Source: Blautia parvula (GTDB lineage Bacteria; Bacillota; Clostridia; Lachnospirales; Lachnospiraceae). From it: 64,000 nt of DNA. Within the stretch, counting starts at the first letter, position 1; every line of letters begins with the position of its first letter. The translations under genes were made by a program, and so were the position numbers. Below, one piece after another: positions 22,979-39,140 of the stretch. The stretch spans positions 1,302,001-1,366,000 of the forward strand of contig NZ_CP084061.1 of assembly GCF_020215665.1 (NCBI RefSeq). The letters are read 5' to 3'. The notes beneath the pieces are model-generated. The model made no database searches, had not been told where the DNA came from, and saw only the letters and a program-made list of their open reading frames with translations.

Positions 22979-23692
22979 TTAATTTATAGTATTAATATTT
23001 CCGCAAAATTCTTCCACATTCTGAAACATTATCTCCAGCCTATCAATCTTCTTCTCCGTATGATAATGCCCACAATACCACTTCTGATATTCCAGCTTGT
23101 CCTCTATCCCATCTAGCCATTCTTCCGTAGACTTATCTACTTTGCTCTGGTCAACGCCTGGCAGGAACACTTCCACCGGCTCATATTTCAATGGTGTGGT
23201 ATGACTCAGCACCACATCCACCTTCCACCCTAGTTTATCTAACTGAGCTTCCACATACTTCTTTATTTCCTCTGATGGCTGTTCATCTTCCCACCAGCCG
23301 TAACCGTAAATCAGCCGGAACATTTTATCAATGCTGTACGCTCCACCCATGACAATCACCTGCTTCCCATCCAAATCAAACACTTCCCCGTCTTTTGCAA
23401 ACAACAGATGTGGATATTTTTCTTCATAGTAAACCGTACCGCCGTGCCAGCTTTTTTCTTTATAACTGTCTATCGTATACGGTCTCTGCTCATGATTCCC
23501 ATGAATGCAGAAAAGCGTAATCGACAGAGATTCCAGAAATCTTTTCTTTAAACTATCCTGTTTCTGTCCGCTGAAATTTATCCCAGCATCTCCAAGTATA
23601 ATCAATATATCTTCACGACTGGTCTTTAGCCGCTCACAAAATTCTTCTATTCGTCCAAATTGTCCGTGGGTATCACCTGTTATGTATATCAT
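22979..23692 (-). CDS. calcineurin-like metallophosphoesterase
   Basis: This 237-residue protein carries the metal-binding motifs in order: GDTHG near residue 6, LGDAG near 35, GNHE near 65 and GHYHT near 210. It would be a cytosolic dinuclear-metal phosphodiesterase or phosphatase; the family covers many substrates and I cannot pick one. The ATG at 23692 has AAAGGA seven bases upstream; a TTG two codons earlier is less likely. It is not closely linked to other genes, and A/T-rich debris lies downstream. Confidence 0.85.
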   Translation of the reverse strand: MIYITGDTHGQFGRIEEFCERLKTSREDILIILGDAGINFSGQKQDSLKKRFLESLSITLFCIHGNHEQRPYTIDSYKEKSWHGGTVYYEEKYPHLLFAKDGEVFDLDGKQVIVMGGAYSIDKMFRLIYGYGWWEDEQPSEEIKKYVEAQLDKLGWKVDVVLSHTTPLKYEPVEVFLPGVDQSKVDKSTEEWLDGIEDKLEYQKWYCGHYHTEKKIDRLEIMFQNVEEFCGNINTIN

Positions 23693-23733
23693 TTCCAATT
23701 CCTTTCCGGATGCCCGCCCTTGGACGGCTCCCT

Positions 23734-23910
23734 TTATTTAACCATATCATTTCCCTCTTCAACCAGAACTGTCACCGGAGTATCCTTTGTAAATACCCCG
23801 TCCTCCAGCCATGCTCCTTTTAACATAATCGCTGGTGTCGGCTTATAATTATATCCGGACTGCTCACAGACTTTCAATGCCCATTTATCTTTCTTCATAA
23901 TTTCGGCCAT
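23734..23910 (-). CDS. SymE-like toxin
   Basis: The segment KVCEQSGYNYKPTPAIMLKG followed by AWLEDGVFTKDTPVTVLVEE matches the AbrB-fold SymE toxin family, whose core reads P-x-I-x-LKGxWLe followed by a V-x-V strand. The protein ends a few residues early compared with relatives that finish in a LVI-type strand. The start is uncertain: MAEIMKKD at 23910 or the internal ATG at 23898, both after an AGAAAGG sequence. In E. coli, symE lies beside mcrBC and hsd; here it also lies just downstream of McrBC-like genes. A function as an RNA-degrading toxin is inferred from the family. Confidence 0.65.
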   Translation of the reverse strand: MAEIMKKDKWALKVCEQSGYNYKPTPAIMLKGAWLEDGVFTKDTPVTVLVEEGNDMVK

Positions 23911-24025
23911 CCTTTCTGTATATTTCGATAACACTGCACCATTTGCACGGTATTTTAAGACTCTTACGCAGAATTCTGTCCTTAGTGATTTAAAACTTTG
24001 ACCCCATTTTTCCGGAACAGCGGTT

Positions 24026-24157
24026 TCACCGCATCGGTATACCCATCTCTCTGAGAAGGTTCCTTCTGGATGCTTTTGTCTCCTGACTTTTACTTGAGCG
24101 AATAATATCCATATTTTCCTGTATAATACAGACATCATTCGCTACCAGAATATCCAT
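24026..24157 (-). pseudogene. short unidentified open frame, probable gene fragment
   Basis: An open frame encodes 43 residues from an ATG at 24157; the same frame is open upstream to a stop 84 bases further (TEEQLRKIMDILVAND, charged and helical). There is no ribosome binding site and I do not recognise the family. It probably is the 3' end of a lost gene between the SymE-like gene and the defence island. The surrounding 23911-24269 holds nothing else I can support. Confidence 0.25.
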
Positions 24158-24269: not shown

Positions 24270-26714
24270 CTAGCTCAATTTGCTCATGCAGCTTTGCAGC
24301 ATCCTAAATGTTGCATTCGGATGCTTGTTAAATTCTGCAACATTTTCACTCTTCACGATGCTTCCATCACGAATGATATGAATCATGTCACTCTCAATCA
24401 AAACTTTCGTCTCCCCAAACTCAAATGCAGTGGATCCCTCTTCATCCAAAATTCGGGGATCTGTTCGTCTCTTTAATTCTATAAAGAAACGATAATCCGC
24501 CTCATTGCGCAAACGCAGTTCTGAGTATGTCTTTGCGGTACTCAGCAGAAAATAGTTTGTATAAGCAACCGGATTAGGTCCGCTCTCTTCCATGGTAATG
24601 ATTTCCGGAAGTTCATGCCATTGTAAGACTTCAAACACATGATAATCCTTAGAACTATGTTTGCTGGCTCCGGGCAACTGTGACCGTTTTCTCTGACTGT
24701 AAGATATGAGTTCTCCGTAGTACCGAATACCGGAGCCTTTTTCATATAGCGCTACATACCGTATTGGCAGGTTCACTTTATCAAATCGACGAGTCCAGTA
24801 CAACTTAGATTTCAGGAACAGCTGCAGGTGGTCCGAATCTGTAACAAGACCAATCAGCACATCTCTCTTATTCCAATCTACAGTACGAATACGCTCCTCC
24901 ATACCTGCAGGAAGAGTCGCTCTTTCAAACGCTGACTCGGGTGAATCCGTAATCAGATCGTCCAGCAACTTTGTAACAAGTGAAGTTGCACTTGGAAGAA
25001 ACGGCAAACCGCCAATGTTGACACTTTCTATGCTTCGGTAAAACCTATGATTCTTATATACTTCCTCCTCTGCATATGGAAACAAAATATAAGCGCCGAA
25101 CATAGTTTTCTCAAAAGTAAATCTGGAATCCGGATTCTCATAAACAATAGAATCACGATAACGATGCATCGTATTGATATCATCCACTTTGGGACCTGGT
25201 TTGGTATCCGGATAAAATGAGCTGTCTGGATTCATTTCAATGCGGTACTTCGCATCAAAAACATATTTATAGGCATTCTTCGATCCTCGTTTTTCAAGTT
25301 CAAGAACATTATCCGGACGCTGATGCACTGTCTGAGTCTTTGCCTCAGAAGGATTGTAGGTAAGATAGAACCTTTCATCGATTTGGGTATTTACGAATGT
25401 TATCTTCGAAGGCTTTCCCTTGACCAAATCTACTGTGACCCCCTTCCGATCAACCTTGATAATATCCGGTGATTTCAATTCATATCGCTCTTTCAGAATG
25501 GCATAAAGCTTAATGAAACACCAATATTCATAGAGCTGCGCAGTTTCTCTTACAGACATTCGGAAGATGTCGCCACCAACAGAAATGCCATTCTGTAGCA
25601 TCAGATAATACTTGTACAGTTCACGATAACCGGGAGCCATACCGAATACAAGTGACATACTTTGTGCTGCACTGTACTCAGATACATCCGCCAGAAACGA
25701 AGAGGCAAGAATACGCTGCAGTTCTCGCTTTATTCTGTATGCCTTATCCAAAATCGACCGCTCAGGTTTTTGGGTGCTCTTGATATATCTTTTCAGGAAA
25801 TCATCAATGTGTCGTATGGTGGAACGCAACATGAACTTGACCAAACGGTTTTCCTGTGTATCATAGGTAATCTGCTTGCGCACAGAAAGCACACGCTCCG
25901 CCAGAATTCTTGTCCCCCCCTTTCTTATGTATTCAGGATGCTTCTGTAGCCACTTTTCAGAGTTTGAATCTGTTCTCCGTGCTTTATAATGCGGAACGAC
26001 TTCGTGGATCGTTACCAGTTTGTGATGGGGAACAGCAACGATTCGATTTACCGACTGAAGATATTTGCTGCATATTGTTTCTAAAACAGTAAAAAATACG
26101 GCCGACACCTCGTTCTTTTTATGGTTCGGAACGAACACTTGATAAGTCTTCTTCATAAAGTCGAGGACACTTTCACTGATCAGGTCATTAATGTCCGCCA
26201 TCATTTCTTGATAATCCTCTTTATAATTGACCTTAGTGGGATAGACTTCTATCCGAATGGAAATTACTGTCTTATTATTTGCAGCTACATTGAAATCGCA
26301 AAAACCGACATTGTTTCCGAAATTAATAACTCCGGACAATAATGATGCATCATCGTCAAGCACCCGGCAAATTCGTTCTTCAATTAGATTGCTGTTACTA
26401 AAGAATTCAAGCGCTTCTCCATTTCGAGCTTTTATGGTGACAACATAATCGGTCTGCTCAAAGAATAACGGTTTTACTTTGAATTCATGCACCGCCATTC
26501 CTTCATGGTCAAAATATTCCTCTGACATTTCCTGTACAGGAACACTGATTCGTTTTATATCTGAAGCAACGACTTTCAGGGAAGAAGACGCATCACCGTT
26601 TACCACAGCACCTGCATTCTGCTTCCCTTTCGTTTTTATTACTATATCAACATACGCTGTTCGGACCTCTAATAACTTATCAGAGCCAGTAGGAAGTGAA
26701 ACCATCGTCTTCAA
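24270..26714 (-). CDS. DUF2357 (McrC-like) PD-(D/E)xK nuclease protein
   Basis: This 814-residue protein has an N-terminal beta-rich region (about 1-165), a helical middle, and a nuclease domain with PD at residues 467-468 and DAK at 487-489, the classical PD-(D/E)xK pair. LYEYWCFIKL near 394-403 precedes the domain, as in DUF2357/McrC-type proteins. McrC-like subunits cleave DNA when driven by an McrB NTPase; the McrB-like gene overlaps this one by 35 bp, so the two form a pair. It is the last gene of the defence island. Modified or invading DNA is the probable target (inference). Confidence 0.8.
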   Translation of the reverse strand: MKTMVSLPTGSDKLLEVRTAYVDIVIKTKGKQNAGAVVNGDASSSLKVVASDIKRISVPVQEMSEEYFDHEGMAVHEFKVKPLFFEQTDYVVTIKARNGEALEFFSNSNLIEERICRVLDDDASLLSGVINFGNNVGFCDFNVAANNKTVISIRIEVYPTKVNYKEDYQEMMADINDLISESVLDFMKKTYQVFVPNHKKNEVSAVFFTVLETICSKYLQSVNRIVAVPHHKLVTIHEVVPHYKARRTDSNSEKWLQKHPEYIRKGGTRILAERVLSVRKQITYDTQENRLVKFMLRSTIRHIDDFLKRYIKSTQKPERSILDKAYRIKRELQRILASSFLADVSEYSAAQSMSLVFGMAPGYRELYKYYLMLQNGISVGGDIFRMSVRETAQLYEYWCFIKLYAILKERYELKSPDIIKVDRKGVTVDLVKGKPSKITFVNTQIDERFYLTYNPSEAKTQTVHQRPDNVLELEKRGSKNAYKYVFDAKYRIEMNPDSSFYPDTKPGPKVDDINTMHRYRDSIVYENPDSRFTFEKTMFGAYILFPYAEEEVYKNHRFYRSIESVNIGGLPFLPSATSLVTKLLDDLITDSPESAFERATLPAGMEERIRTVDWNKRDVLIGLVTDSDHLQLFLKSKLYWTRRFDKVNLPIRYVALYEKGSGIRYYGELISYSQRKRSQLPGASKHSSKDYHVFEVLQWHELPEIITMEESGPNPVAYTNYFLLSTAKTYSELRLRNEADYRFFIELKRRTDPRILDEEGSTAFEFGETKVLIESDMIHIIRDGSIVKSENVAEFNKHPNATFRMLQSCMSKLS

Positions 26715-28449
26715 ACCTCGTCATCATATATCCAATCTTCTTTGCGCTTTCCGGATATTTTGCAGTATATGCCATAACTCGCATCTGCTCGCCAACATTA
26801 CCTGTATCTGCATCAATTCCGGAAGCAGAACCACTACAGAACTTAAAGAGATCGATCAATAAAGTTTTAACTGTAAAAGAACTGCCCTGAATCCTCGGCA
26901 GGATTTTCTGCATGATCTGGTTATCCATTGCCTGATTATATGTAAGCAGTTCTCCTGCCTTCTTATTATTCAGCATATAGAAAACAATCTCATCACGTAC
27001 ACGGAAGCCTACATTAGCATTTGCCTTGGCAAGAAACTTGTTCATTTCCTGAAGTTCCACGCAAACCTTCTGTACAAAATCTTCTTCCTCTGCACAATCA
27101 ATAGCCAGAATCAGATACTCTGTGCACAGGAAGCTGTTAGATAATGCCTGTGGTTCAACTGTACCAACTGTACGTTTTTGTGGAATCAGATCCACATAGT
27201 TGAATTCTATGGTATTGGCACGATCCAGGACTTTCTTGCTGAATGGGAAGGTCGTTTCATCCATATTGACGGTACCGACAACATAAAGGTTATCCGGAAT
27301 TCCACCTTCATACTGTGCTATGCCTTCTGTTTTGATTCTACCCTCACTCTTATAACGAGACTCGATAACTGACAAAAAATCACTCAGATAATACTCCACA
27401 CGTGCCAAGTTCATCTCATCGAAACAAAGAAATACGGGCTTGTCTGGATTTTCAACAGCTGCATCAAAAGCACTGCAGACAGGACCCTGAATAAAGTGAC
27501 CGTTAAGGTCTGTATGTCCGAAAAGGTCACTGCCATCGCTCCAGTCCGGCCGCACAGATACAAGCCTATAGTCAGCTCCGATGGCTTCCGCAAAGAGTTT
27601 TACCAAACGAGTCTTTCCAGTACCGGAAGTACCGGCAAGAATAACAAAAGGCTTGCTCTTCAAACTGAGGTAGAAGTTTTCAACCATGCCATCAGGGTAA
27701 TCGAATCCTCGATTAAAAATATAATTTTTAATTTCAGTAACTGCCTCCTTCGAGCTAACAATAGACTTCAGACCAGGCATAGGCTTCTCTCCTTCCTTTG
27801 ACTTTGGTTTTGAAGGTTGATGTAACTCGAAAAGTTCATCATAATAACTAACCAACTTTTCTGCTGCACCTAGCAGAGACTTACACAGAGCGGCATCGTT
27901 AGTGTAATCATCTTCAGTAATAATGTAGGAAATCTGAACCTTTTTTAGCTTCATAGCCTTTACTACAGTGTTATCGCGTTCATCCAATATACGAAATTCA
28001 GATTCGTTATTGCCTCCAGACACATATACGAGCATTGGATCAAGCGGGACATTAAGTAAGCCTGCATAAGTTGTAATATCGCTTGTAGAAGCAGCTGCCA
28101 TTGCTAATTCAATGCTCAGACGAAACCGGAGAAAATCGTTTCCTTTTTCAGCAAATAACGACATGCTGATTTGGCTATCTTTATGCTCTTTGCGCTTCAT
28201 TTGACACCATAAATAGCTTACATAAGTGCCGCTATTTTGCCATTGCGTAACCTTGTCATGTTCAAACGAACATGATTTCTCAATGATTTCCACTAGCTCT
28301 GTAAATTGCGCTCTTGCAAATTTTCCAGCCTCACTTCCAGAAACCATATAGTCACGCTCTTCATTTGAAGAGCATTTATCAAGCTTCTTATATTGATTTC
28401 CTCCATATTTTTTTAAAAATGACAAGATTTTCAGATAGTTATCAACCAT
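26680..28449 (-). CDS. McrB-like AAA+ ATPase/GTPase
   Basis: This 589-residue protein has an N-terminal region of about 240 residues of unknown fold, then an AAA+ domain: Walker A GTSGTGKT (about 273-280), Walker B VFLCFDEMN (about 350), and GTVNMDE (about 400), the position of the McrB NTAD-type motif. McrB-like motors form hexamers and translocate DNA to activate the McrC-type nuclease. The N-terminus is probably the specificity domain and is unlike the DUF3578 domain of E. coli McrB as far as I can see. The ATG at 28449 has GAGGT eight bases upstream; a TTG five codons earlier is less likely. Confidence 0.85.
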   Translation of the reverse strand: MVDNYLKILSFLKKYGGNQYKKLDKCSSNEERDYMVSGSEAGKFARAQFTELVEIIEKSCSFEHDKVTQWQNSGTYVSYLWCQMKRKEHKDSQISMSLFAEKGNDFLRFRLSIELAMAAASTSDITTYAGLLNVPLDPMLVYVSGGNNESEFRILDERDNTVVKAMKLKKVQISYIITEDDYTNDAALCKSLLGAAEKLVSYYDELFELHQPSKPKSKEGEKPMPGLKSIVSSKEAVTEIKNYIFNRGFDYPDGMVENFYLSLKSKPFVILAGTSGTGKTRLVKLFAEAIGADYRLVSVRPDWSDGSDLFGHTDLNGHFIQGPVCSAFDAAVENPDKPVFLCFDEMNLARVEYYLSDFLSVIESRYKSEGRIKTEGIAQYEGGIPDNLYVVGTVNMDETTFPFSKKVLDRANTIEFNYVDLIPQKRTVGTVEPQALSNSFLCTEYLILAIDCAEEEDFVQKVCVELQEMNKFLAKANANVGFRVRDEIVFYMLNNKKAGELLTYNQAMDNQIMQKILPRIQGSSFTVKTLLIDLFKFCSGSASGIDADTGNVGEQMRVMAYTAKYPESAKKIGYMMTRFEDDGFTSYWL

Positions 28450-28490
28450 TTTGCGGTACCTCAAGTTCTAATTTTAAATTATATAGTCAA

Positions 28491-29066
28491 TCATTGTCTA
28501 GTTGGTATGGTCAAATCTCGATACCGTTCTTTTTTCAATTCAGCCTCAACATCTTTCGACGCACTAGTAAGCGGTGTAAGCTCTCCAATCAACAAAGGAA
28601 TATCCAATGCCCCATAAAGAGACAGAATCTCCTTCTCCAATTTTTCAAACGAAACGATTGCTGCTGCATCATTAGGTGAGATAATATTCAGTGTCTTTCT
28701 ATTAGCGGCAAGAATCACAGCTTGTTCAATGCCTTCCTTCTTACAAACTTTCAAAGCGTCCAAAATATCAGACCCTAGACTCATCTGATGTCTGAAAGTA
28801 ACCCTAATCCATGTTTTTTCTTTTATGAAATAACCCGAATCGCCATCCCATCCATGATAGTTAAAACGTTCAACCAAAATCTCATTCAAATAACGCTGCA
28901 TTCCTTTAGGAGCACTCTTTCCAGCTTTGATTTTTGCATCTCGCTCAGCTGAAAAACGAACAGAAGCATCTTTCCATACATTGCTACTGATTATTTCTAA
29001 TGCTTCAGATGTTTCATCTGTTAGTGTTGGTTTTGTCCATGGAGGAGCAAGTAATCGAGTTTTCAT
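28491..29066 (-). CDS. 191-residue orphan, possible restriction-endonuclease-like fold
   Basis: I do not recognise a family with certainty. The protein has a helical start with SAERDAKIKAGKSAPKGMQR, then RYLNEILVERFNYHGW, an alternating strand TWIRVTFRHQ and a helix-strand unit ILDALKVCKKEG / QAVILAA. This helix-strand order resembles BamHI/BglII-type nucleases, but the ExK position reads VTF, so it may be an inactive or divergent relative (speculative). It sits four bases downstream of the PLD/SNF2 gene and 26 bp upstream of the McrB-like gene, so it is an integral part of the six-gene set. Confidence 0.6.
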   Translation of the reverse strand: MKTRLLAPPWTKPTLTDETSEALEIISSNVWKDASVRFSAERDAKIKAGKSAPKGMQRYLNEILVERFNYHGWDGDSGYFIKEKTWIRVTFRHQMSLGSDILDALKVCKKEGIEQAVILAANRKTLNIISPNDAAAIVSFEKLEKEILSLYGALDIPLLIGELTPLTSASKDVEAELKKERYRDLTIPTRQ

Positions 29067-29070
29067 AAAA

Positions 29071-32000
29071 TCACATCCTTCTCAAAGCCCAAAATTCCGG
29101 GCATTTTTCTAGTTCAGTATCCACGCTATAGCTTAAATCCAAGTTTTTACTATTAGGCAACATAATAGGCCTCCCCTGAAGTTCATCACTTGTACTAAGC
29201 TCTTTATCCAAAAGAAACTCTGTTATTGATTCATGCTTGATCAGAATCTGATTTCCGCCATCTTTAATCGCAAAAGCGATATCTTTTCCATGCTCATCCT
29301 GAAGGATTTCTATTCTAGAATCAGTAAAATCTATGAATTTCCATGGTATTGATGTGAGAGAAATACTCTCTTGCATACCGTCTTTAGCCGTCAGGTCAAC
29401 TATCGTACCATCTGGCATCTCATATTGAACAATAATTCCATCTAGTAATTTTCCGCGAACAGGAAATATGTTATTGCACAGTGAAATCAGATTTTCTCGC
29501 ATTCTTCTTGTCACAGTTACAGCCGATGTTTGTGACCATAATTCTTCCAGCGCACGTCTTTGAACAGAGTTACGAATCTCTTTTAACTCTGCTATTCCCG
29601 TAGCATCCTCATCCTTATCTTCTATAACGGCATCGCGAATCTCAGTTGCAACGATTTCTGGAAATTCTCCTATAGCCAAATTTGTCTCTTCGAGACGTCG
29701 CTGTATTCGATGGTACATCCGTGCCTCTATACTATTAGGATACCAAACATTATAAACATCAACTTTCTCAGACACTTGACCAAGTCTTGCAATACGACCA
29801 ATTCTCTGCTCTAATCTAGCCGGAGTCCAAGGCACATCGACATTGATCAACACACGGGCTGCTTGCAGATTTAAGCCTTCAGATGCTGCATCCGAGCAAA
29901 ATACGACCTTCATTCGTCCGGAGAACAAAAATTTTTTTATTTCAGTTTTACTGCATAGTGTTTCTGTACCGTTTTCAACAATTATAGATTTGTCACCGGT
30001 ATAGATGCCGTAAGCATACTTGCTGTTAGCTCCAATACGAGCAAATTCGTGTAATAACGCATCGACAGTGTCTGTATATCTTGAAAATAAAAGAACTTTA
30101 TCATCCTTCTCCAAACACCTGAGCGCGATTTGAATTGAACGCACGATCTTCAAATCGCCAGAAGCCTTCAAAAGGGTATCCACTTCTTTTAGCAACGATG
30201 ATAGCGCTGTTGTTTCGATGCCAACACTCCTACGTAGAGCCACCACATCTAAATCTCCACAATCAATTTCATCTGTACCTTCAAAATCAATATTCAGCAA
30301 ATCATCCAATTCAATATCGTCTGAACTTGAAAGGATACCGAATGACTGGCCAAGTGTAGAGAACTTTTTCAGATGCTCATCTAATTTATCCTTTAGCTTG
30401 GTGATTTTTTCGTATCTACGTTCTAAACTCTTTTTACAGGATAAGAGAGAAGAAGCCATTCTCTGTTGATAACTAACTCGTACAAATCCTATTGACCTAA
30501 ATTGGTCCGGGTATAAGACTTGCTCAACCTGAAAACAATCATTCGTTAAATACTGATCTAGTTTTATGTAAAACAACTGAACTCGCTCGGAATCAGTAAC
30601 AGATTCTTCAATAAGATTTCTGGTTGGAAACTTGTATCCAACATTTGATAATGCTCTACGAGTATTTCTGACTGTCAGCAAATGAGCCGGATGAAGTTTG
30701 ATGAATGCAGGCCTGAGTATATTCCAGTTGTTTTGCACCATTTTACCCAGTTCGTATTGATCCGCAGTATCCTTGATATCAACTATCTTCTCAACTGCAA
30801 TCGTTTCTTCTTTTGTAAGACGGCTCATATCTGGTTTCATCGACGAAATTGTACTGAGAAGTAGCTTTGCAACACTGGCCGCATCTGAAATATCTGGTGT
30901 CTCAGCAATCGCGATAACTTTTAATGAAGTTGTATAATTACGTGGTTTTTGCCAAATTTTAGGCAACCCCAGTAATTTTAATATGGCATGATATTCACTT
31001 GCTTCTTTTTGCATAGGTGTAGCTGTGGCAAGTATAAGATGTGGAATCTTTCGAACCACGCTTTCTAACATAGAATACATGCGAGTCTTCTGTGAAGTTC
31101 CTGCAATAGATTTGCTTATACGCGCAGAATGAGCTTCATCAAGAATCAATAAATCAGGCAAAACGCATCCAGGTTGTGAAAATAGGTCCTTATTTTTTCC
31201 ACTACCGCGAGCAAACTGTGCTGACATAAGTACAATACCTGGAGCCCTCTTCCCTAATGGATTGTCAGTACCAATACCGATGCTCTTACCAAAGCAGTCA
31301 TAGTATGCCTTAGAGCTAGAATTATACAAATATGCATTTATGTGAAAGTGTTCAAAGAGTTCGTCTTGCCACTGTTTCAAAACTGATTTAGGCGTTAAAA
31401 TGACTACTCTCTTGATGCCGCAATATTTTACAAGAAAGTTCATCGTTGCAGCGACTTCAAACGTTTTGCCGAGTCCCACTTCATCAGAAAATAATACACG
31501 CACAGGCCACCTTGAAAGAGCGTCAATCACAGCTCTTTCCTGATGCATATATAGTGCTGGAATATCTCCTGAAACAAAGTAATTAGCGAGCATTTTAGAA
31601 GCCGCAGAAAGAATTTCAGCAGAACCATGGCAAACTTCAACACCAGACTTAAGTGAAGCATAGTCCTTACCCAACGCCTCTTTAATCATTTCTGCAGTAT
31701 CTTCTGTAATATCTAATACGTCCGCTTCTTCATGTTTATTGTTCCAAAGCGTTTCAAAAAAATCCTGCTGCGTTTTCACTGCATCCCGTGCTAGCCAAGA
31801 AGTAGCGACCATTAGCTGCTCAAAATTTCCCCCAAGCCCACTACCGGTCTCATTCGGACTTCCAACAGCGACCAGTGTATCTTTATCATCTGAAAGAATT
31901 AGCGTTTTCGGGTGAAAAATACCATCACCATTAACAGCAGCAGCCTTAATTTCGAGCAACTGATCTTCAACCATCCAAGCGATAGTAGCTAATCGCTTTT

Positions 32001-32328
32001 TCTTCAAAGAATCCGAAATGGAATTTATTCCTTTTTTAACTTCTTCACGTACTGAAGCAATCTGCTTTGTCAAATATTCTCGTCGCAAGGATGCTTCAAC
32101 AAATTCTGCAGGTACGCTATGAATCCCTATAATGAGACGCATTCTTCCTTGTTTCTGATATAACGCTTCGATTCCCTGAGAAATTGCCAGCAGAGACTCA
32201 ACTGTATAAAAACTTGTTACCCTGTCATAATGTACTGATTCGCCAATGGCAGGTAATAAAAAATCTTTTAAAATCAGTTCACCTCTACCGGCATAGCTCA
32301 GTTGGATATTGATTTCTTTTAATCCCAT
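29071..32328 (-). CDS. PLD-nuclease/SNF2-type SF2 helicase fusion
   Basis: This 1085-residue protein begins with a phospholipase-D-like domain (about 1-200): HxK at 139-141, GSPNETGSGL at 156-165 and Glu170 form one HKD-type active site. An SNF2/RapA-type helicase follows, with EVGLGKT (283-289), DEAH (397-400) and a C-terminal RecA domain (about 745-900) containing FCSDAASEGLNLQ and RLEQRIGRIARLGQ. Single-HKD domains usually dimerise to cut DNA. It is presumably the translocase/nuclease of the island. The gene lies three bases downstream of the 216-residue orphan and four bases upstream of the 191-residue orphan. Confidence 0.87.
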   Translation of the reverse strand: MGLKEINIQLSYAGRGELILKDFLLPAIGESVHYDRVTSFYTVESLLAISQGIEALYQKQGRMRLIIGIHSVPAEFVEASLRREYLTKQIASVREEVKKGINSISDSLKKKRLATIAWMVEDQLLEIKAAAVNGDGIFHPKTLILSDDKDTLVAVGSPNETGSGLGGNFEQLMVATSWLARDAVKTQQDFFETLWNNKHEEADVLDITEDTAEMIKEALGKDYASLKSGVEVCHGSAEILSAASKMLANYFVSGDIPALYMHQERAVIDALSRWPVRVLFSDEVGLGKTFEVAATMNFLVKYCGIKRVVILTPKSVLKQWQDELFEHFHINAYLYNSSSKAYYDCFGKSIGIGTDNPLGKRAPGIVLMSAQFARGSGKNKDLFSQPGCVLPDLLILDEAHSARISKSIAGTSQKTRMYSMLESVVRKIPHLILATATPMQKEASEYHAILKLLGLPKIWQKPRNYTTSLKVIAIAETPDISDAASVAKLLLSTISSMKPDMSRLTKEETIAVEKIVDIKDTADQYELGKMVQNNWNILRPAFIKLHPAHLLTVRNTRRALSNVGYKFPTRNLIEESVTDSERVQLFYIKLDQYLTNDCFQVEQVLYPDQFRSIGFVRVSYQQRMASSLLSCKKSLERRYEKITKLKDKLDEHLKKFSTLGQSFGILSSSDDIELDDLLNIDFEGTDEIDCGDLDVVALRRSVGIETTALSSLLKEVDTLLKASGDLKIVRSIQIALRCLEKDDKVLLFSRYTDTVDALLHEFARIGANSKYAYGIYTGDKSIIVENGTETLCSKTEIKKFLFSGRMKVVFCSDAASEGLNLQAARVLINVDVPWTPARLEQRIGRIARLGQVSEKVDVYNVWYPNSIEARMYHRIQRRLEETNLAIGEFPEIVATEIRDAVIEDKDEDATGIAELKEIRNSVQRRALEELWSQTSAVTVTRRMRENLISLCNNIFPVRGKLLDGIIVQYEMPDGTIVDLTAKDGMQESISLTSIPWKFIDFTDSRIEILQDEHGKDIAFAIKDGGNQILIKHESITEFLLDKELSTSDELQGRPIMLPNSKNLDLSYSVDTELEKCPEFWALRRM

Positions 32329-32331
32329 AAC

Positions 32332-32982
32332 TTATTTCCCAATTGCGTCCAAGATTCTGTCGCATATCTCTTCATCACCGTCTATACTGTTGCGCTTAAT
32401 AGCGCCCTTTGAAGACAGGTTCTCCAAAATTTTTAATACGATATCTATCTGCTTTCCAGAAAGAGTTTTTCCGCGTTTTTTCTGAGTCACAACACTTTTA
32501 AAAAATTTATTCTCCCACTCAGAAAGTGCATTGAAATCCTGTCCCTTTTTAAGTGCATGTGCCAAATCAGCTCCAGTCAACATTCCCACCATTTGTTCTT
32601 TAGTAAGTCCTGCAATTTCCATCATTTGCTGATAAACAAACTCACTATGCGATGTACCATTATTTGAATGTGAATCCTTACTATTCAATAATGCATTTAA
32701 TGCCTGTCTCGCCTCTTCATAACTAGCGTTCGCTATCAGTGCCCATGTAGTTTTTGGCGGCTCAGCCTTAGAAATCAATTCAATAAGTTCTTCATCTAAA
32801 GCACCCAAAGATAATAGCGCGTCCAATTCAGAAGGTGTTGCTTTAACAAACGCAGCTGCAGTAGAAAGATCCAAACCCACAGCATAAAACGCTTCTGAGA
32901 TTTCGATGATTTTCTGTCCTAAATCTACATCTACGGAATTCCAAAGGTCTTTGATTTTCTCAAGAGCTTGATATTTATCCAC
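32332..32982 (-). CDS. 216-residue helical orphan of the defence set
   Basis: I do not recognise this protein. It appears almost wholly alpha-helical, with leucine- and glutamate-rich segments, a linker rich in Ser/Asn (SKDSHSNNGTSHSE) near residues 101-114, and a basic C-terminal part (VTQKKRGKTLSGKQ). No membrane segment or catalytic motif is visible. The gene is three bases from each neighbour (MORC-like ATPase upstream, PLD/SNF2 helicase downstream), which implies translational coupling and probably a physical complex. An adaptor or DNA-binding role is a guess. Confidence 0.75.
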   Translation of the reverse strand: MDKYQALEKIKDLWNSVDVDLGQKIIEISEAFYAVGLDLSTAAAFVKATPSELDALLSLGALDEELIELISKAEPPKTTWALIANASYEEARQALNALLNSKDSHSNNGTSHSEFVYQQMMEIAGLTKEQMVGMLTGADLAHALKKGQDFNALSEWENKFFKSVVTQKKRGKTLSGKQIDIVLKILENLSSKGAIKRNSIDGDEEICDRILDAIGK

Positions 32983-32985
32983 AGC

Positions 32986-34461
32986 TTATTTCATCCCTTC
33001 CGTGCGTTTAACTACCCATTCATTTCGAATTTTCAGGGCCTTGGACGCATCATAACTAAGTTTTTCCACAAGTAATCTATAAATAGCATCAGATGTTGCA
33101 AGTACTTTCTTTACATCGTCATCAACCTTCTTCTTCCATAAAGGGTGATTCTTAAACAGTAGCACCTGCAATTCTGCAGTATCGTCATCATCACTTTCAG
33201 CAAAAATATAGTCAAATGGTGCATGTATACTGCTTCCACTCTCTTTTTCAAGATAAGTAATGATAATTTCTCCTTCATCTTCCAAAGTCAGAGCCTCTTC
33301 AGTAACGATATTCTTGATGGTATCATTGATACTTGGCTTCTCGTCTCTTTCACCTTTCTTTGTAGAAGGTTTTTTTTCACCAAAATCCTCCTCACTCACT
33401 TCACCATCAACCTCATAATCGTCACGCAGCGTATTAACTATTTTCTTAAGCTCGCTCGGATTATTAATATTTCCTTTTTTGCTCACATTATTTGATGCCG
33501 TAACAATACCTTTCAAGTATTCTTTCATATGAGCGGCAACGAACATCCAGTCTTCTGATTGCTGAATACCCTGCTTATAGAAAGTTGCATCCAAAAAGTC
33601 CATATTAACTTCACCAATAATTCGGCTTGTCATCAGATGTGCTCTAAACCAAGTCTTGTCGTATTTTTCTACTAGCTGATTATGTCTATAAATATTAAAT
33701 CCATAAAAACCGTTGTTATGAGTCTGAGAATCCAATGCCATCCAGCCAGTAATATGATATTTGTCTTCCGGCCCAAAAATCTCATCAATTTCGACTTTTG
33801 TTCCTTTAATGAAATTATATTTGATTGGCTCCGCATCATTAGTACCAGATTCATCAATAATGGTGATTCTATCGCCATGATCTAGATGAGCCTTAAAAGC
33901 TTCTCCCATGTAAGCTAGTATTGCACTTACCATAGGGTTTTTATTTTTTAATCTGCTTATAACAAAAGCAGTTCCATGTCCAGCTGCGCCTAAAGGGGAA
34001 TTTTCAGAAGGCAGGAAATCTTCAATTTCCACGTCCCATGCATCTGACCCGGCTGGTCGTGTTCCGTAATCATTAATATCAAACGACGTATAATATTCGA
34101 CATTCCCATCTACTGGTCTGGTATAGATTTCATAATAATTACCAAGGGTTGAACAGGATGTCTTAAAACCCATTCCGAAATGGCCTTTTGCACCTTCTCC
34201 TCTTTCAATATATCTAGACATATCTTCGGCAATACATACCGCTTTTTCCAGAATGGAAAATTCCATACCTTTTCCGTTATCAATGACAGTGATCCTTCCA
34301 TTTCGCACGTCGATGGTTATTGCAAGTTTTTCATCCTGATAACGGGCGTCAAAGCAATTTGCAACCAATTCTCCAATGGCCTCAGGAGTCGTTTGATTTG
34401 TTGCACCAATTGTTTCCATCAAACGTGGAGAAGGATAATTTTTCACAATACGCTTGCCCAT
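32986..34461 (-). CDS. MORC-like GHKL ATPase
   Basis: This 491-residue protein has a GHKL (Hsp90/MutL/histidine-kinase) ATP-binding domain. The N box is GELVANCFDA (residues 30-39; Glu31, Asn35), the G1 box DNGKGM (61-66) and the G2 box GHFGMGFK (93-100). An S5-like domain probably follows, then an acidic/lysine-rich linker near 330-360. Bacterial MORC/paraMORC ATPases are known neighbours of SF2 helicases and nucleases in restriction systems, probably clamping or remodelling DNA. GAGGTG lies eight bases before the ATG. It is the first gene of the six-gene set, after a small interrupted open frame. Confidence 0.85.
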   Translation of the reverse strand: MGKRIVKNYPSPRLMETIGATNQTTPEAIGELVANCFDARYQDEKLAITIDVRNGRITVIDNGKGMEFSILEKAVCIAEDMSRYIERGEGAKGHFGMGFKTSCSTLGNYYEIYTRPVDGNVEYYTSFDINDYGTRPAGSDAWDVEIEDFLPSENSPLGAAGHGTAFVISRLKNKNPMVSAILAYMGEAFKAHLDHGDRITIIDESGTNDAEPIKYNFIKGTKVEIDEIFGPEDKYHITGWMALDSQTHNNGFYGFNIYRHNQLVEKYDKTWFRAHLMTSRIIGEVNMDFLDATFYKQGIQQSEDWMFVAAHMKEYLKGIVTASNNVSKKGNINNPSELKKIVNTLRDDYEVDGEVSEEDFGEKKPSTKKGERDEKPSINDTIKNIVTEEALTLEDEGEIIITYLEKESGSSIHAPFDYIFAESDDDDTAELQVLLFKNHPLWKKKVDDDVKKVLATSDAIYRLLVEKLSYDASKALKIRNEWVVKRTEGMK

Positions 34462-34464
34462 TTA

Positions 34465-34626
34465 TCACACCTCATTTAAATAATCTTCTGTTTCTATTGA
34501 TACGATATCATCCTGATGAACATCCAAGATACACGCCAGTTTAAATCTTCAATAGTCTGCACAGCTTGCCATAATTTCTTTGCAAGAAGATGCCTCATCC
34601 GTGTCATTATAATTTGGATGCTTCAT
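34465..34626 (-). pseudogene. small open frame split by an in-frame TGA
   Basis: From the ATG at 34626 the frame reads MKHPNYNDTDEASSC and onward for 25 codons, meets TGA at 34549-34551, and continues in the same frame for 27 codons (KLACILDVHQDDIVSIETED) to a stop five bases from the MORC-like start. The ATG is seven bases after the stop of the endonuclease gene. It may be a broken small protein, two mini-genes, or a coupling element. The family is not recognised; the second half looks like the end of a small regulator. Confidence 0.35.
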
Positions 34627-34633
34627 AGCTTAT

Positions 34634-36181
34634 TCAGCCTTTTTGGTGTTCTCCTAAATATTTCATCTTATTCAGTAGTTCTACAACATAAGTTCCTTTA
34701 ACCCAATAATTTTGTCGGAGCATTTTTAAGCCATTAACGATCACTTTATCAGTCGCATCTTTTCCTGTTCCACGAAAAAAAATCACATTATCCAATGCTT
34801 TTGGAAGATTTGTTTGTAACATCTCAATTCCTGTTTTAGCTGTATAACGAACAGATCCATCTTTTCTCCTCATAACTGTTACTGTTAATTCACCCGTTTG
34901 TACTAAACGTTTTGCTTCTTCCCAGGATGCTCTTACCGATGACATAATTTCATCTGTCCCCAATTCCAAGATTTTGAACCCCTCAAAGGTATTCTCACCA
35001 TAAATAACCTGAGTGATCATTTTCTTTCCATCGGGGCCTACTATCATTCTCGGATGTTCTTGGAATACTGGACACAACAATCTGTAATCATTAAAAAAGC
35101 TATAAACATCTGTATCTTCAAATTTTTTTTGTTCTCCATCTATAATTTGAAAATCAGAAAAATCCAAAGGACATGCAGACAATTTCAAGTCTTCTGTCCT
35201 TCCTCCATTTTTATTTAAAACAACGATCTGCCCATTTAATCCAAACTTCGCAAGCTGCTCAATCTGAGAAATCTTTTTAGTTCCTCCAAACATTTTTGCA
35301 ATAATTTTCTCACCGGCTTGTTTACAACTAATGTTATTATCCACACCAAACTCACGACATAACTCATTTAATGTCATACCTTTATATCGTCTTGTATATT
35401 CTATACACTCCTTTTCGACATCATTTATACCAAAATAATGACGGTCAGATCTTTCATATGTATTATTGATTGAACTCTGTACGATAACCGTAACAAACCT
35501 TGCTCTAAAACGAAACCTAGGTGCATTAGGATATTTCGGAGATGTATCCAAATACTCCAAATTCTTATTCACAACTGTAGAAAGATTAGGATATTCTTTT
35601 TTTCTGCTTTCTTTATCTGGATATCTTTTATGAATATCAGCAATAAAATCATGTACTTTTTGCCAATCACTTGCTATAATCACTTTATCATCATCAGTAC
35701 AATTATAGAAATAGAAATTCTTTACTTGAAAATCCTTATACCCTGCTGCTTTTACCGTCATCTTCGATAGATAATGATAATAAACAAATAAAATCCTCTG
35801 TGATTTATGCCAAAATTTAGATGTTTCAAAAGTCTCTTGTTCTATCGTAGGTATAGATACGGCGGTAATACTGCAAGGCTCTTTCGCATACCATAAACCG
35901 CGCGATTTTTCCTGAATACCGATAGTCTTTAACTCTACATCTTCATTGTCCACATTCAAATCCGGTATCTGTTTATTATTTGCCTTATAGCCAAACACAG
36001 ACTGTTCAATTACATCTCCGGCAATACCTGTCACCTTTGGATTCATAACTGTCTTATCAAAAACTCGATTGATATCCAGCTCTTCAAGTGTTTTACCTAT
36101 GGTAGGAATTAGGATTCCATATACCTGTTCTTTAGTATAATGTGGAATCTCTTCCTGCAGATTTATTTCACGAATACCCAT
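34634..36181 (-). CDS. Sau3AI/MutH-type restriction endonuclease, subunit 1
   Basis: This 515-residue PD-(D/E)xK nuclease is of the Sau3AI/MutH family. The catalytic set is Glu59 in GDVIEQSVFGYKANN, Asp74 in IPDLN, and Glu83-x-Lys85 in DVELKT. As in Sau3AI, a second MutH-like domain follows the catalytic half (about residues 270-510). Sau3AI cuts GATC and is blocked by cytosine methylation; whether this enzyme has the same specificity cannot be read from sequence. It lies 61 bp downstream of the methylase gene, and a related endonuclease lies on the methylase's other side. Confidence 0.85.
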   Translation of the reverse strand: MGIREINLQEEIPHYTKEQVYGILIPTIGKTLEELDINRVFDKTVMNPKVTGIAGDVIEQSVFGYKANNKQIPDLNVDNEDVELKTIGIQEKSRGLWYAKEPCSITAVSIPTIEQETFETSKFWHKSQRILFVYYHYLSKMTVKAAGYKDFQVKNFYFYNCTDDDKVIIASDWQKVHDFIADIHKRYPDKESRKKEYPNLSTVVNKNLEYLDTSPKYPNAPRFRFRARFVTVIVQSSINNTYERSDRHYFGINDVEKECIEYTRRYKGMTLNELCREFGVDNNISCKQAGEKIIAKMFGGTKKISQIEQLAKFGLNGQIVVLNKNGGRTEDLKLSACPLDFSDFQIIDGEQKKFEDTDVYSFFNDYRLLCPVFQEHPRMIVGPDGKKMITQVIYGENTFEGFKILELGTDEIMSSVRASWEEAKRLVQTGELTVTVMRRKDGSVRYTAKTGIEMLQTNLPKALDNVIFFRGTGKDATDKVIVNGLKMLRQNYWVKGTYVVELLNKMKYLGEHQKG

Positions 36182-36242
36182 ATTCTATTCACTTTCTCAT
36201 ATTACTTAGTTTTCAACCCATAAAAATCCTCTGCTTAAGTTG

Positions 36243-37628
36243 TTACTCCTGGTCGAAAATAGCATCAAGGGTTCTTTCCATATCCTCAATCAAATTTACT
36301 ACCAATGCATTCCCCATCATAAAACGTCTTTTCTTAACTGGCATTTCTACAACTTCTTCATTGACCAAACAAAATTTTGTATGATCTGTTGGAAATCCTT
36401 GTATACGTTCTGTCTCCGTAGCTGTTAACAATCGGATTCTTCCTGTCTGTTTATCTTTTACAATATGCGTTGTCCTACTAAAACTCCCTTCTGATGTCAG
36501 CATGGTACGGGCAGGTTTATCATAACTATCCAACATCGCAATGGCTCCCTCAGAAAAAATATACTCATGACCATTCGATGATTTTCTAGATAGTTTTTTC
36601 CCCCCTTTCAAATACTGCCATGTTTGACGGTCTTCTTTAGGTAGCTTTCCCTTTGTTTCGTCACTTCTCGTAACCAATGGATCCGTATAATAAAGCTTTT
36701 CTTCTGAGATAAAATAGGATTCATCTACATCTCCTGTTTCCATAATATCTCCTAACGTTATCTGTGTACCATCAAATTTTGGAGTTGTCTTAACACTATA
36801 TACAACTCCATCTTTCATAATCCCTGTATTTTCAAATCCAAAACTAAAATGCTCAGATAACTCTCCTATCCCATCCGGGAGTTTCGTTATCAAAATTTTT
36901 TTATTATCGACATCGTTGACAGGAAATGTTTCAGCAAAGAATCCATCCTTCAGCAAAAGTTTACCCATGCTTATTCTCTGTGCTTCTAAACTATCACTAT
37001 ACTTATATCCAACTTTTTCTTGAATGGTAGTACAGTATTTCATATCATCCCTATAGGCAAAAATAAAGGTACGTCTTCTACGCTGTTGATATCCATAATC
37101 TGCCGCATTGATCACACGCCATTCGACCGTATATCCCTGATCTCTAAGGCAAGCCAAAATAATCCCAAAGTCTCTTCCCCTCTGTTTCGCTGGGGATTTT
37201 AATAATCTATCAACATTTTCAAGTAATATAAATGGCGGCTGCTTTGCTTCTATAGTGTCTCGTATGGACCACCATAAGATACCTTTTTTTCCTTCTAGAC
37301 CCTTTGATGTAGCCAATGATGAAGCCACCGAATAATCTTGGCAAGGAAATCCACCAACCAGAAGATTAAAATCAGGAATAGAAGACTTATCAACCTCTTC
37401 TATATCGACATTTGTAGTATCATTTCCATTAATATCGTATCTATTGCCAAATCGATATACATAACAATCATGTGCATACTGTGTCTTCTTCTCTGCTGGC
37501 TCCCACTGATTAAACCAGACAGTATCCCATTTTTCTTTTTTATTTACATCCTCCAATGTTTTTATATGGTTTAACCCACAACGGAATCCACCTACCCCTG
37601 CAAATAATTCACAAACAGTTTTTTTCAT
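36243..37628 (-). CDS. DNA cytosine-5 methyltransferase
   Basis: This 461-residue m5C methylase has the motifs in order: motif I ELFAGVGGF (7-15), motif IV GGFPCQDYS with catalytic Cys96, motif VI ENV (137-139), motif VIII QRRRR (182-186), a target-recognition region of about 200 residues, and motifs IX-X (ERIQGFP and MMGNALVV) near the C-terminus. It protects the host from the two flanking Sau3AI-type endonucleases. Vsr nearby would repair T:G mismatches produced by m5C deamination. GAGGTG lies six bases before the ATG. Confidence 0.94.
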   Translation of the reverse strand: MKKTVCELFAGVGGFRCGLNHIKTLEDVNKKEKWDTVWFNQWEPAEKKTQYAHDCYVYRFGNRYDINGNDTTNVDIEEVDKSSIPDFNLLVGGFPCQDYSVASSLATSKGLEGKKGILWWSIRDTIEAKQPPFILLENVDRLLKSPAKQRGRDFGIILACLRDQGYTVEWRVINAADYGYQQRRRRTFIFAYRDDMKYCTTIQEKVGYKYSDSLEAQRISMGKLLLKDGFFAETFPVNDVDNKKILITKLPDGIGELSEHFSFGFENTGIMKDGVVYSVKTTPKFDGTQITLGDIMETGDVDESYFISEEKLYYTDPLVTRSDETKGKLPKEDRQTWQYLKGGKKLSRKSSNGHEYIFSEGAIAMLDSYDKPARTMLTSEGSFSRTTHIVKDKQTGRIRLLTATETERIQGFPTDHTKFCLVNEEVVEMPVKKRRFMMGNALVVNLIEDMERTLDAIFDQE

Positions 37629-37711
37629 TCAAAACACCTCAATCTATTATTTTACATGTAACTATTCCGATTAATTGTATGATAAATATGGGACTTTGTA
37701 AAGATCTTTTT

Positions 37712-39139
37712 CTATTTTTCCAAAAATCTTTTTTCTAATTGACTCAATATGTACGAATTATTTAGCCAAAAGCATTGTTTTGGAAACTCTCTACCGTCTG
37801 GTAATTCATAGGTATCTTTAGCATTTCTTGCGTGTGGTCTGACATGACATACTGGATTATCAGATGCTTTAGGAAAATTATTATAATGTTTCCCATTTCT
37901 GACTTTTATCTCCAATCCGTCCAGCACTACTTGCTTTGTAGCTTCCCATACTGATTTGACATCACCTTCCAAATCCTTGTATGGAATATTCCAAAATTGA
38001 CATCCCTTCAACCTTAATTCATTTTCTCCATTATATTTATAGACAACGAACAAAAAACGAGTCTCGCGAAGATAGTTTCCAAAAGTAGATTCATCCCATT
38101 CCTCTTCTACTAATTCTTTAAATTTAAACGTAGGAAATGACATATTTTCTCTGATTTTATTATTCTTTTCTATCCTAATCGTCTTTACAACAATATTAGC
38201 TTTTTCAAATTCTTCTGCATGATTTCCTTTAATTCCCAGGATTCTATACGCTAGCATTGCTTCCAAATTTTTTGTTTTTTTCTGGAAATCAACCTGAAAT
38301 TCCTCACATAAGTCTCTGACGGTATACCCACAATATTTATTTATCTTCTCTACGACATAATCCTCAAAAGAGGCTTCCGCCATTCCTTTGATAATTGGTT
38401 CATAAGTAATCTTGCCTGGAATGACGTAATTATTCAATACATAGGTCATATAAGAATTCTTAAATGCAAATGCCCTAGGTTTTGCTAACTCGCTACTAAA
38501 AGGTTGTTTTCGTCTATCTCTTGAGCTAGACGCCTTTGGAGCTGCACCTAAATAAAGCGTATCACTCTCAGACAATTCATGTGCCTTTCCAGCCTTTATC
38601 TTTTCTTTTATGACATAAAAATCATGCTCAATTATCTTGATATCCTGTTCTGCCGGTGAAAACAATTTCACATAACCAATTTTATAATCCAATCTATTTT
38701 CAATCTCTTTTCGATACAAATAATAAATCAATAAAATCAATCTTGCCTTTTGCCACATATGGCTTTCTACAAAGGTCTCGTTAACAACTGAATAGTAATC
38801 AATCATAGTAAGAATAAGCCTCTCCTTTGCAGATATAGTTCCATTTTTATTCACCTTATATGGTGTTACTTTTAATTCTACCCCTGCTTTGTCAAAATCT
38901 GGTTTAGCATCATTATTTGCCTGATAGTGAAAATATCTTTCTTCTATTAATTCACCAAGTCCACCTTTTCTCTTTTTATTTTCATGTTTTGCTTCGTAGT
39001 TATTAATTTCTCGAACCACCATGGCTTTTGTGATATCATCGTCTTCACATACCTCTGCAAATGTTTTTCCAACCAATTTTTTTCCATATTCTTCAATTGA
39101 TATGGGATCCGTCTCATCATACTCTAATATAAAATCCAT
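37712..39139 (-). CDS. Sau3AI/MutH-type restriction endonuclease, subunit 2
   Basis: This 475-residue paralogue has the catalytic set in ELIEERYFHYQANN (residues 63-76), KPDFD (Asp81) and GVELK (Glu88, Lys90), closer to classical Sau3AI than subunit 1. A second domain completes the protein. The ATG at 39139 has GAGGAG seven bases upstream and begins one base after the Vsr stop codon. Two non-identical Sau3AI-like proteins flanking one methylase suggest a heterodimer or two separate nicking activities (inference). Confidence 0.85.
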   Translation of the reverse strand: MDFILEYDETDPISIEEYGKKLVGKTFAEVCEDDDITKAMVVREINNYEAKHENKKRKGGLGELIEERYFHYQANNDAKPDFDKAGVELKVTPYKVNKNGTISAKERLILTMIDYYSVVNETFVESHMWQKARLILLIYYLYRKEIENRLDYKIGYVKLFSPAEQDIKIIEHDFYVIKEKIKAGKAHELSESDTLYLGAAPKASSSRDRRKQPFSSELAKPRAFAFKNSYMTYVLNNYVIPGKITYEPIIKGMAEASFEDYVVEKINKYCGYTVRDLCEEFQVDFQKKTKNLEAMLAYRILGIKGNHAEEFEKANIVVKTIRIEKNNKIRENMSFPTFKFKELVEEEWDESTFGNYLRETRFLFVVYKYNGENELRLKGCQFWNIPYKDLEGDVKSVWEATKQVVLDGLEIKVRNGKHYNNFPKASDNPVCHVRPHARNAKDTYELPDGREFPKQCFWLNNSYILSQLEKRFLEK

Positions 39140-39140
39140 T

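Follow-up and report, generated by a model that had tools for sequence, protein, structure and literature searches.

Which genes in a run of restriction-type genes in Blautia parvula belong together, and do they form one machine or several? We analysed a 64,000-bp stretch of contig NZ_CP084061.1 (positions 1,302,001 to 1,366,000; hereafter the window). An earlier note, made from the DNA letters alone, had proposed that six genes at 24270-34461 encode a single undescribed defence machine with two nucleases and three NTPases. Comparison of 16 related loci gave a different answer: the conserved object is a quartet, consisting of a MORC-family ATPase, a 216-aa protein, a PLD/SNF2 helicase and a 191-aa protein, coupled to a Dcm-type restriction-modification (R-M) module, and the McrB/DUF2357 pair of the window is accessory and lies outside the conserved core. 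The window's open reading frame (ORF) list does contain six adjacent minus-strand ORFs, at 24270-26714, 26680-28464, 28491-29066, 29071-32328, 32332-32982 and 32986-34461, as the note had read them. Their packing is tight (from tool-given ORF starts, a 35-bp overlap and then gaps of 26, 4, 3 and 3 bp, going from 24270 to 34461), and a 41-bp gap reported earlier was not reproduced. The proposed borders of the cassette fell, as the same-strand run continues upstream to 41607 and McrB/DUF2357 stand outside the core.

A tblastn search of 72,556 plasmid records with the window MORC protein (491 aa, 32986-34461, minus strand) matched three records, one of them over the full length. This was an archaeal Haladaptatus plasmid (NZ_CP120471.1; 37.1% identity, E = 3e-81), in which relatives of the 216-aa protein (31.7%, E = 5e-27) and of the helicase (E = 8e-172) come after MORC, in that order. 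A motif invariant between these two MORC proteins was written as a DNA pattern and scanned against one genome per species (84,980 species). The scan returned 14 stretches, all 14 holding MORC orthologues at E = 7.6e-146 or better; as an exact motif was required, diverged members were missed, and the frequencies given here describe the loci found, not nature. Together with the Haladaptatus plasmid and the window, these make up the 16 loci, in which neighbouring genes were sought by BLAST at 1e-4 within the stretches fetched (RUG173, RUG11163 and Ruminococcus have less than 2 kb downstream of the set). By record title, the 14 belong to Butyrivibrio, Sarcina, Sharpea porci, Ruminococcus, two Coriobacteriaceae, seven Bacteroidales (two titled Bacteroidaceae and one Prevotella) and Methanomassiliicoccus. 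A metagenome-assembled genome (MAG) or uncultured organism is indicated in 11 of these titles, and a stomach compartment of goat or buffalo in five. We take the bacterial loci to span three phyla, with phylum names drawn from the record titles, in addition to two archaea.

MORC, the 216-aa protein and the helicase followed one another in this order at 16/16 loci (the helicase is broken in RGIG3373 and MORC is cut by the contig end in Ruminococcus). Because 14 loci had been chosen by the MORC motif only, and all 14 carried the same next two genes in the same order, chance is excluded. The 191-aa gene came next after the helicase in 11 of the 16. A Dcm of one subfamily lay near the set in 12; three of the other four are contigs whose start lies within MORC or under 0.9 kb ahead of it, and the 29 kb seen of Haladaptatus held no relative of the associated Dcm. 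Sau3AI/MutH-type nucleases were present in 10 loci (the Haladaptatus copy is short, 27% identical, 13 kb away and on the other strand) and Vsr in eight. McrB with DUF2357 was found in two, the window and Sarcina, and the three loci with less than 2 kb of downstream sequence could hide the pair. On these counts, and because McrB/DUF2357 pairs also occur without the quartet (see below), we place the pair outside a core of quartet plus Dcm module. The co-occurrence proposed earlier for the two small proteins thus held with MORC and the helicase (16/16 for the 216-aa and 11/16 for the 191-aa protein) and failed with McrB/DUF2357 (2/16). The flanking Sau3AI-type R-M genes, which that proposal had left out, are commoner company of the quartet than McrBC, and the idea of a conserved multi-gene set of restriction or defence type was borne out by its relatives.

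The set is rare. It occurred in one of 397 genomes in the family sample, the window's own; the phylum sample likewise gave a MORC match at 1e-15 in one of 398 genomes, again the window's own. Among 195 genomes of relatives, eight matched MORC at E <= 0.001, with 9.2e-7 as the top value apart from the window's own. Five scans of viral contigs (with the MORC protein, its S5 fragment and three further queries) and one pattern scan yielded no orthologue of the set and only three distant loci.

Most of the domains assigned earlier were recovered by Pfam (DUF2357/PD-(D/E)xK, AAA_5, SNF2 and MORC); the PLD domain stayed below the cut-off. MORC matched HATPase_c_3 (1.8e-11) and Morc6_S5 (6.6e-08), and in a search of its profile against the PDB the best matches were MORC3 and MORC4, with human MORC3 the nearest solved structure by sequence (6.8e-14). 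In the 14 rows that cover the ATPase motifs, 15 of the 16 positions checked did not vary; the other, G63, was kept in 13 rows and is Ala in Haladaptatus. Within bacteria, MORC shows 56-76% identity.

The helicase (1085 aa, 29071-32328, minus strand) matched SNF2 (5.6e-15), Helicase_C (1.1e-16) and PLDc_2 (5.8e-05), and its nearest solved relative by sequence is RapA (3.3e-37, profile against the PDB). Its identity within bacteria is 45-58%. We aligned its motifs from 12 of the 16 loci (alignment A9, which omits Butyrivibrio, Sarcina and RGIG2667, where genes straddle two stretches, and RGIG3373, where the gene is broken; for straddling genes, alignment A5 also omits RGIG7113 and A8 Methanomassiliicoccus). 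Walker A, DEAH and the motif VI arginines were invariant in all 12 rows, as were H139, K141 and D147 (HxK and D) and GSxN of the PLD domain. PADLOC ranked PLD_Helicase first (3e-57) and PbeA second (7.1e-53, residues 3-412). The nearest NCBIfam family, the PLD anti-phage protein NF042964, scored 307.9 bits against a curated 1100. The RGIG3373 gene (Bacteroidales; stretch L050, 11750-14978) is interrupted, its two reading frames lying 121 bp apart, either because this copy is damaged or because the assembly is wrong there.

Both small proteins had been called orphans, which is right insofar as neither has a Pfam family above the cut-off; the 191-aa protein (28491-29066, minus strand), however, has a predicted BglII/BamHI/BstYI fold. 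Neither protein matched PADLOC at 0.1, NCBIfam matches were far below cut-off, and the profile of the 191-aa protein found nothing in the PDB at E <= 10. An AlphaFold2 model of the latter, built from 10 orthologues, had a mean predicted local distance difference test score (pLDDT) of 74.3 and a predicted template modelling score (pTM) of 0.71. The top 14 Foldseek matches of this model in the PDB were all BglII, BamHI, BstYI or OkrAI; E was 2.6e-5 for the strongest and no higher than 0.001 for six of them, with TM-scores on the query of 0.39-0.52 and a root-mean-square deviation of 4-11 Å over the 14. A single hhalign comparison of its profile with nine proteins of the BglII family PF09195 (nine of ten; the partial one, L075, was omitted) scored 41.1, with probability 85.5 and E = 5.7e-6, and the maximum over 30 column-shuffled versions was 18.2.

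The acidic pair at the catalytic positions of BglII is kept in eight of the nine PF09195 proteins; at the corresponding positions all 10 aligned orthologues of the 191-aa protein have Tyr79 and Arg88, the position of Tyr79 being set by the profile alignment and adjoining a gap in the MAFFT alignment. The protein thus shows, in its predicted model, the fold of a BglII/BamHI-type endonuclease and lacks the acidic pair. Since Tyr79 and Arg88 stand where the catalytic acids would be, it is probably not a nuclease and may serve as a DNA reader. It is well conserved, with 62-72% identity to the window copy in the nine other aligned orthologues, about as much as MORC and more than the helicase. The sites recognised by BglII, BamHI and BstYI are centred on GATC, which is itself the site of Sau3AI. 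A search of 14 whole genomes (Haladaptatus being represented by its plasmid stretch only) found the 191-aa protein in the same 10 that have it at the locus and in no other, and the plasmid collection gave no match at 1e-3.

The 216-aa protein (32332-32982, minus strand) was modelled from 15 sequences as all-helical, with pLDDT 87.7 and pTM 0.54. Its first 18 Foldseek matches were ParB, Spo0J or KorB structures, the best at an E of only 0.067. We rejected a ParB-like kinship by sequence: hhalign against 15 ParB proteins gave a probability of 0.3 and a score of 15.8, and 30 shuffles reached 21.5. CbiZ and other weak family matches were below cut-off and judged to be chance. A ParB/KorB-like DNA-binding adaptor is our guess from the modelled fold.

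Upstream of MORC, all on the minus strand, lie four Sau3AI-type R-M genes. Nuclease A (515 aa, 34634-36181) matched Pfam MutH (1.2e-19) and PADLOC REase_II (2.2e-95) and has a PD...ELK motif; against the NCBIfam Sau3AI family NF040973 it scored 173.7 bits, below the cut-off of 300. The DNA (cytosine-5) methyltransferase Dcm (461 aa, 36243-37628) matched Pfam DNA_methylase (1.1e-55) and, above cut-off, TIGR00675 (214.8 bits). The Sau3AI family restriction endonuclease (480 aa, 37712-39154) reached 563 bits against the same NF040973 cut-off and matched Sau3AI in the PDB (4pxg, 1.1e-72), and the Vsr mismatch endonuclease (160 aa, 39141-39623) matched Pfam Vsr (2.6e-25) and, above cut-off, TIGR00632 (121 bits). 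In the presumed target domain, W-x-Y-x-KG(A/G)K is common to all 12 Dcms associated with a quartet or trio (MORC, 216-aa protein and helicase), across the three phyla; a second Dcm in RGIG3373, 8 kb off and of another subfamily, lacks it (one control). This common stretch fits one shared target. In RGIG2667 (Bacteroidales; stretch L052, 14006-14782) an HNH restriction-type nuclease (PADLOC HNH, 1.8e-82) lies between Dcm and MORC.

Downstream of the quartet, the McrC-like protein (814 aa, 24270-26714, minus strand) matched DUF2357 (8.4e-65) and PDDEXK_7 (1.1e-45) and has a PD...DAK motif, and the McrB-like AAA+ protein (594 aa, 26680-28464, minus strand) matched AAA_5 (2.3e-08) and has Walker A, DEMN and NMDE motifs, with a shortened NxD signature. 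By sequence, the pair therefore has the features of a Type IV McrBC system (Walker A, Walker B and Nx(x)D in McrB; DUF2357 and PD-(D/E)xK in McrC). Its best PADLOC matches are the unnamed candidates PDC-M26A (2.6e-51 for the McrB-like protein) and PDC-M26B. In Sarcina the two genes directly follow the 191-aa gene in the same order; identity is 66% over the GTPase part of McrB and 42% for DUF2357, and the McrBC-quartet arrangement is thus of some age. The pair stands without the quartet in two relatives of the window's organism (DUF2357 identity 43% and 40%), neither of which matched MORC at E <= 0.001. Stretches L084 (11898-16512, with a protein kinase gene) and L085 (11114-15434) hold such pairs near HNH genes. 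The slot after the 191-aa gene holds a modification-dependent enzyme, by family match, in three loci: in Butyrivibrio AE3009 it is taken by an AspBHI-type methyl-directed nuclease (L045, 1206-2408; PADLOC mREase_II, 6.7e-114). The same genome has an SRA-domain protein just before MORC (L044, 13492-14559).

Whether this is a known system was addressed by comparison with published ones. Operons of MORC, superfamily 2 (SF2) helicase, cytosine methylase and Vsr were predicted to be R-M systems in 2008 (Iyer, Abhiman and Aravind, PMC2292703), which takes away part of the claim that the system is undescribed; the rest stands, as none of the open-licence papers listed by literature searches names the quartet. 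In excerpts of the 2008 paper, as in the window, MORC adjoins an SF2 helicase and is accompanied by cytosine methylase and Vsr; a few of the helicases carry an HKD (PLD) domain. Unlike the window, HKD there sits on Rad25-like helicases and the SWI2/SNF2 form occurs with HNH or EcoRII-like nucleases, and those excerpts mention no 216-aa helical partner and no BglII-fold reader (PMC2292703). The window has the GHKL plus S5 MORC-affine protein of these operons, their SF2 helicase (PLD/SNF2, two genes downstream of MORC in 16/16 loci) and, nearby, the DNA methylase and Vsr that are frequent in them and not required. The operon idea is thus known; the quartet version with two small proteins is new, given that these have no PADLOC match, that the helicase is far under its nearest curated family and that no naming publication was among those listed. 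Among the titles and abstract openings listed, none reported an experimental study of a bacterial MORC protein. On Rhodococcus plasmid pLW4 (L011, 9100-15418) a different MORC-type ATPase, a DEAD/DEAH helicase, Dcm and Vsr lie beside insertion sequence (IS) transposases, an operon of the 2008 type.

SauUSI has a PLD-type nuclease, and CglI, NgoAVII and SauUSI read their targets with other domains than those of the quartet. According to excerpts of the papers, site-specific cutting by CglI and NgoAVII needs a helicase-like ATPase and much ATP (PMC4267653), their nuclease is stated to be of PLD type (PMC6459918), and SauUSI moves along DNA by translocation, shredding it between its target sites (PMC7913695). 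ATP-dependent restriction by a helicase-like ATPase is what they would share with the quartet; unlike the quartet, they are described in those excerpts with no mention of MORC.

DISARM and PbeABCD were sought by PADLOC, with matches listed for ten window proteins (the best 25 for the helicase and Dcm). The Haladaptatus trio lies directly upstream of drmA, drmB and drmC (L009, 13953-25913), which qualifies as DISARM; the helicase is distantly DrmD-like, and the Haladaptatus PLD/SNF2 protein may replace the DrmD helicase. The window itself is not DISARM, as DrmB and DrmC were not among the matches listed and DrmA appeared only as a helicase-type match (2e-25). We also rejected membership of DndCDEA-PbeABCD, which the helicase resembles in that PbeA is a PLD plus helicase protein (excerpts of PMC6459918): PbeA-type matches were to the helicase only, and no PbeB, PbeC, PbeD or Dnd was among the matches listed. 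MZA was rejected too, the curated MzaB score being 850 bits and the MORC scores 22.8 (window) and 48.7 (Haladaptatus). The window pair resembles McrBC of the NxD branch in its NxD signature and in DUF2357 with PD-(D/E)xK, and GTPases of that branch are often associated with DNA methyltransferases (Bell 2024, PMC11090510, in part); it differs in being accessory to a MORC/PLD cluster. Coiled coils are the mark of CoCoNuTs. An excerpt of a later paper links a DISARM-like cassette to McrBC operons (Bell 2025, PMC12458937), and the terms GHKL, MutL and HSP90 are absent from its main text. The Sau3AI-family nuclease and 5-methylcytosine (5mC) methyltransferase recall a Sau3AI R-M system, to which the window adds a second, diverged Sau3AI/MutH-like nuclease, Vsr and the quartet.

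The guanine-plus-cytosine (G+C) content over 22-44 kb of the window is 0.35-0.42; of the 21 intervals measured outside this part, which range from 0.39 to 0.51, 16 reach at least 0.43. Inside this island it steps from about 0.35 in the R-M genes through 0.37-0.40 in the quartet to about 0.41 in McrBC. The low, stepped G+C and the scattered cross-phylum distribution point to horizontal transfer and patchwork assembly, and 24270-39623 is probably a mobile composite restriction cluster of three modules. The island ends could not be fixed, and no empty site was established, because the flanking DNA is too poorly conserved in the 20 congener genomes searched.

On balance, we favour a restriction machine of several subunits, of MORC type, which is linked to an R-M system resembling Sau3AI and takes exchangeable add-ons. 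The sequences show which genes are present, their order and co-occurrence, the predicted folds and the state of the motifs; from these we infer defence role, target site, complex formation and cleavage as follows. A Type II R-M module would comprise the Sau3AI nuclease, the second Sau3AI/MutH-like nuclease, the 5mC methyltransferase, whose mark would spare host DNA, and Vsr, which would repair deaminated 5mC. In a second module of four genes (MORC, the 216-aa helical protein, the PLD/SNF2 translocase and the BglII-fold protein), the 191-aa protein would bind a GATC-centred site unless it is marked by the methyltransferase, and recruit the PLD/SNF2 subunit. The latter would translocate with ATP while its PLD domain cuts or nicks, MORC would close round the DNA as an ATP-driven clamp, and the 216-aa protein might bridge subunits or aid DNA binding. 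The optional third module, McrBC in the window and Sarcina or an AspBHI-like enzyme in Butyrivibrio, would attack DNA that escapes through other modifications. We advance tentatively, as less than an even prospect, a wider version in which the trio is a portable translocating restriction engine of bacteria and archaea outside Types I-IV that borrows its reader, from a dead BglII-type enzyme with Sau3AI/5mC in bacteria and from DISARM drmABC in haloarchaea.

Several observations weigh against the coupled machine. The fold match of the 191-aa protein comes from a pLDDT-74 model of 10 close sequences with TM-scores of 0.39-0.52 and deviations of 4-11 Å, and residue 76 is acidic (D or E) in 10/10 orthologues, so the active site may have shifted. 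GATC as its target is reasoned by analogy from Sau3AI and from the sites of BglII, BamHI and BstYI. The protein was absent from four of the 14 whole genomes, of which the Ruminococcus contig ends at the helicase and the MAGs are possibly incomplete; the trio may therefore function without it. The ParB-like view of the 216-aa protein is left with a fold hint and no sequence support, and the PLDc_2 match of the helicase, at 23.4 bits, is under the Pfam gathering score of 27. The stretch common to the Dcms may reflect descent alone, given the one control. RGIG2783, RUI360 and RGIG7113 keep quartet and Dcm with no Sau3AI-type gene in the stretch fetched, and Dcm is on the opposite strand in three loci.

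That last point also suits a defence island, in which three or four independent systems (Sau3AI R-M, MORC quartet, McrBC, MazG/Schlafen) merely sit side by side. Module order varies accordingly, with R-M genes downstream of the quartet in Butyrivibrio, the G+C content steps between modules, and the Haladaptatus trio adjoins DISARM in 29 kb without the associated Dcm; yet at 12 of the 16 loci, in three phyla, a Dcm of a single subfamily accompanies the quartet or trio, which speaks against mere proximity, and we consider the island unlikely, if a serious contender. The quartet might instead guard the state of the genome, as a 5mC-linked sensor, of MutL/Vsr-like repair or of topology, that blocks foreign replication without cutting, in the manner of PbeABCD. 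MORC is related to MutL, its neighbours include Vsr and MutH-type proteins, the PbeA model is second only to PLD_Helicase on the helicase, and PbeABCD is described as halting virus DNA without visible cleavage (excerpts of PMC6459918). We regard this as improbable, as the PLD catalytic residues are invariant in 12/12 rows, which suggests cutting, and the partners of PbeA were missing from the matches listed. Least credible, and in our view very doubtful, is the single six-gene complex of McrBC, PLD/SNF2 and MORC originally proposed: strand, spacing and the conserved order in Sarcina speak for it, whereas the scarcity of McrB/DUF2357, its occurrence without quartet or MORC match in two relatives and its replacement by an AspBHI-like nuclease in the same Butyrivibrio slot all argue that it is a separate add-on.

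The cluster offers a compact conserved unit, two enzymes and two small partners, for testing the 2008 idea of MORC in restriction. A restriction fold that lost its catalytic acids and was still kept at 62-72% identity across phyla would illustrate clearly how a nuclease can become a DNA reader. The DISARM link in the archaeon suggests exchangeable motor modules among defence systems, and the portable engine, if real, would provide a bacterial working model for MORC clamps beside a chromatin-remodeller-like motor.

The same-strand run that extends upstream of MORC to 41607 includes, beyond the R-M genes, a MazG-like gene (39655-39996; Pfam MazG-like, 2.8e-23) and a GIY-YIG plus Schlafen-type helicase gene (40018-41607; SLFN-g3_helicase, 1.5e-58; GIY-YIG, 5e-05), both on the minus strand and loosely associated. 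Its largest gap, 172 bp, separates MORC from nuclease A. A relative of the Schlafen-type helicase (35%) also lies near the quartet in Coriobacteriaceae RUG11163 (stretch L064). Promoter and terminator scans stayed at the level of shuffled sequence (66 v 60.6 and 7 v 9.5, respectively) and are therefore uninformative on operon ends. Directly downstream of the DUF2357 gene are a SymE-like toxin domain (23734-24138; 5.4e-07) and a calcineurin-like phosphoesterase (22979-23698). At 42652-42680 on the plus strand, near the low-G+C edge, a perfect sigma-70 consensus (TTGACA, 17, TATAAT) stands 76 bp ahead of a hydrolase gene at 42757.

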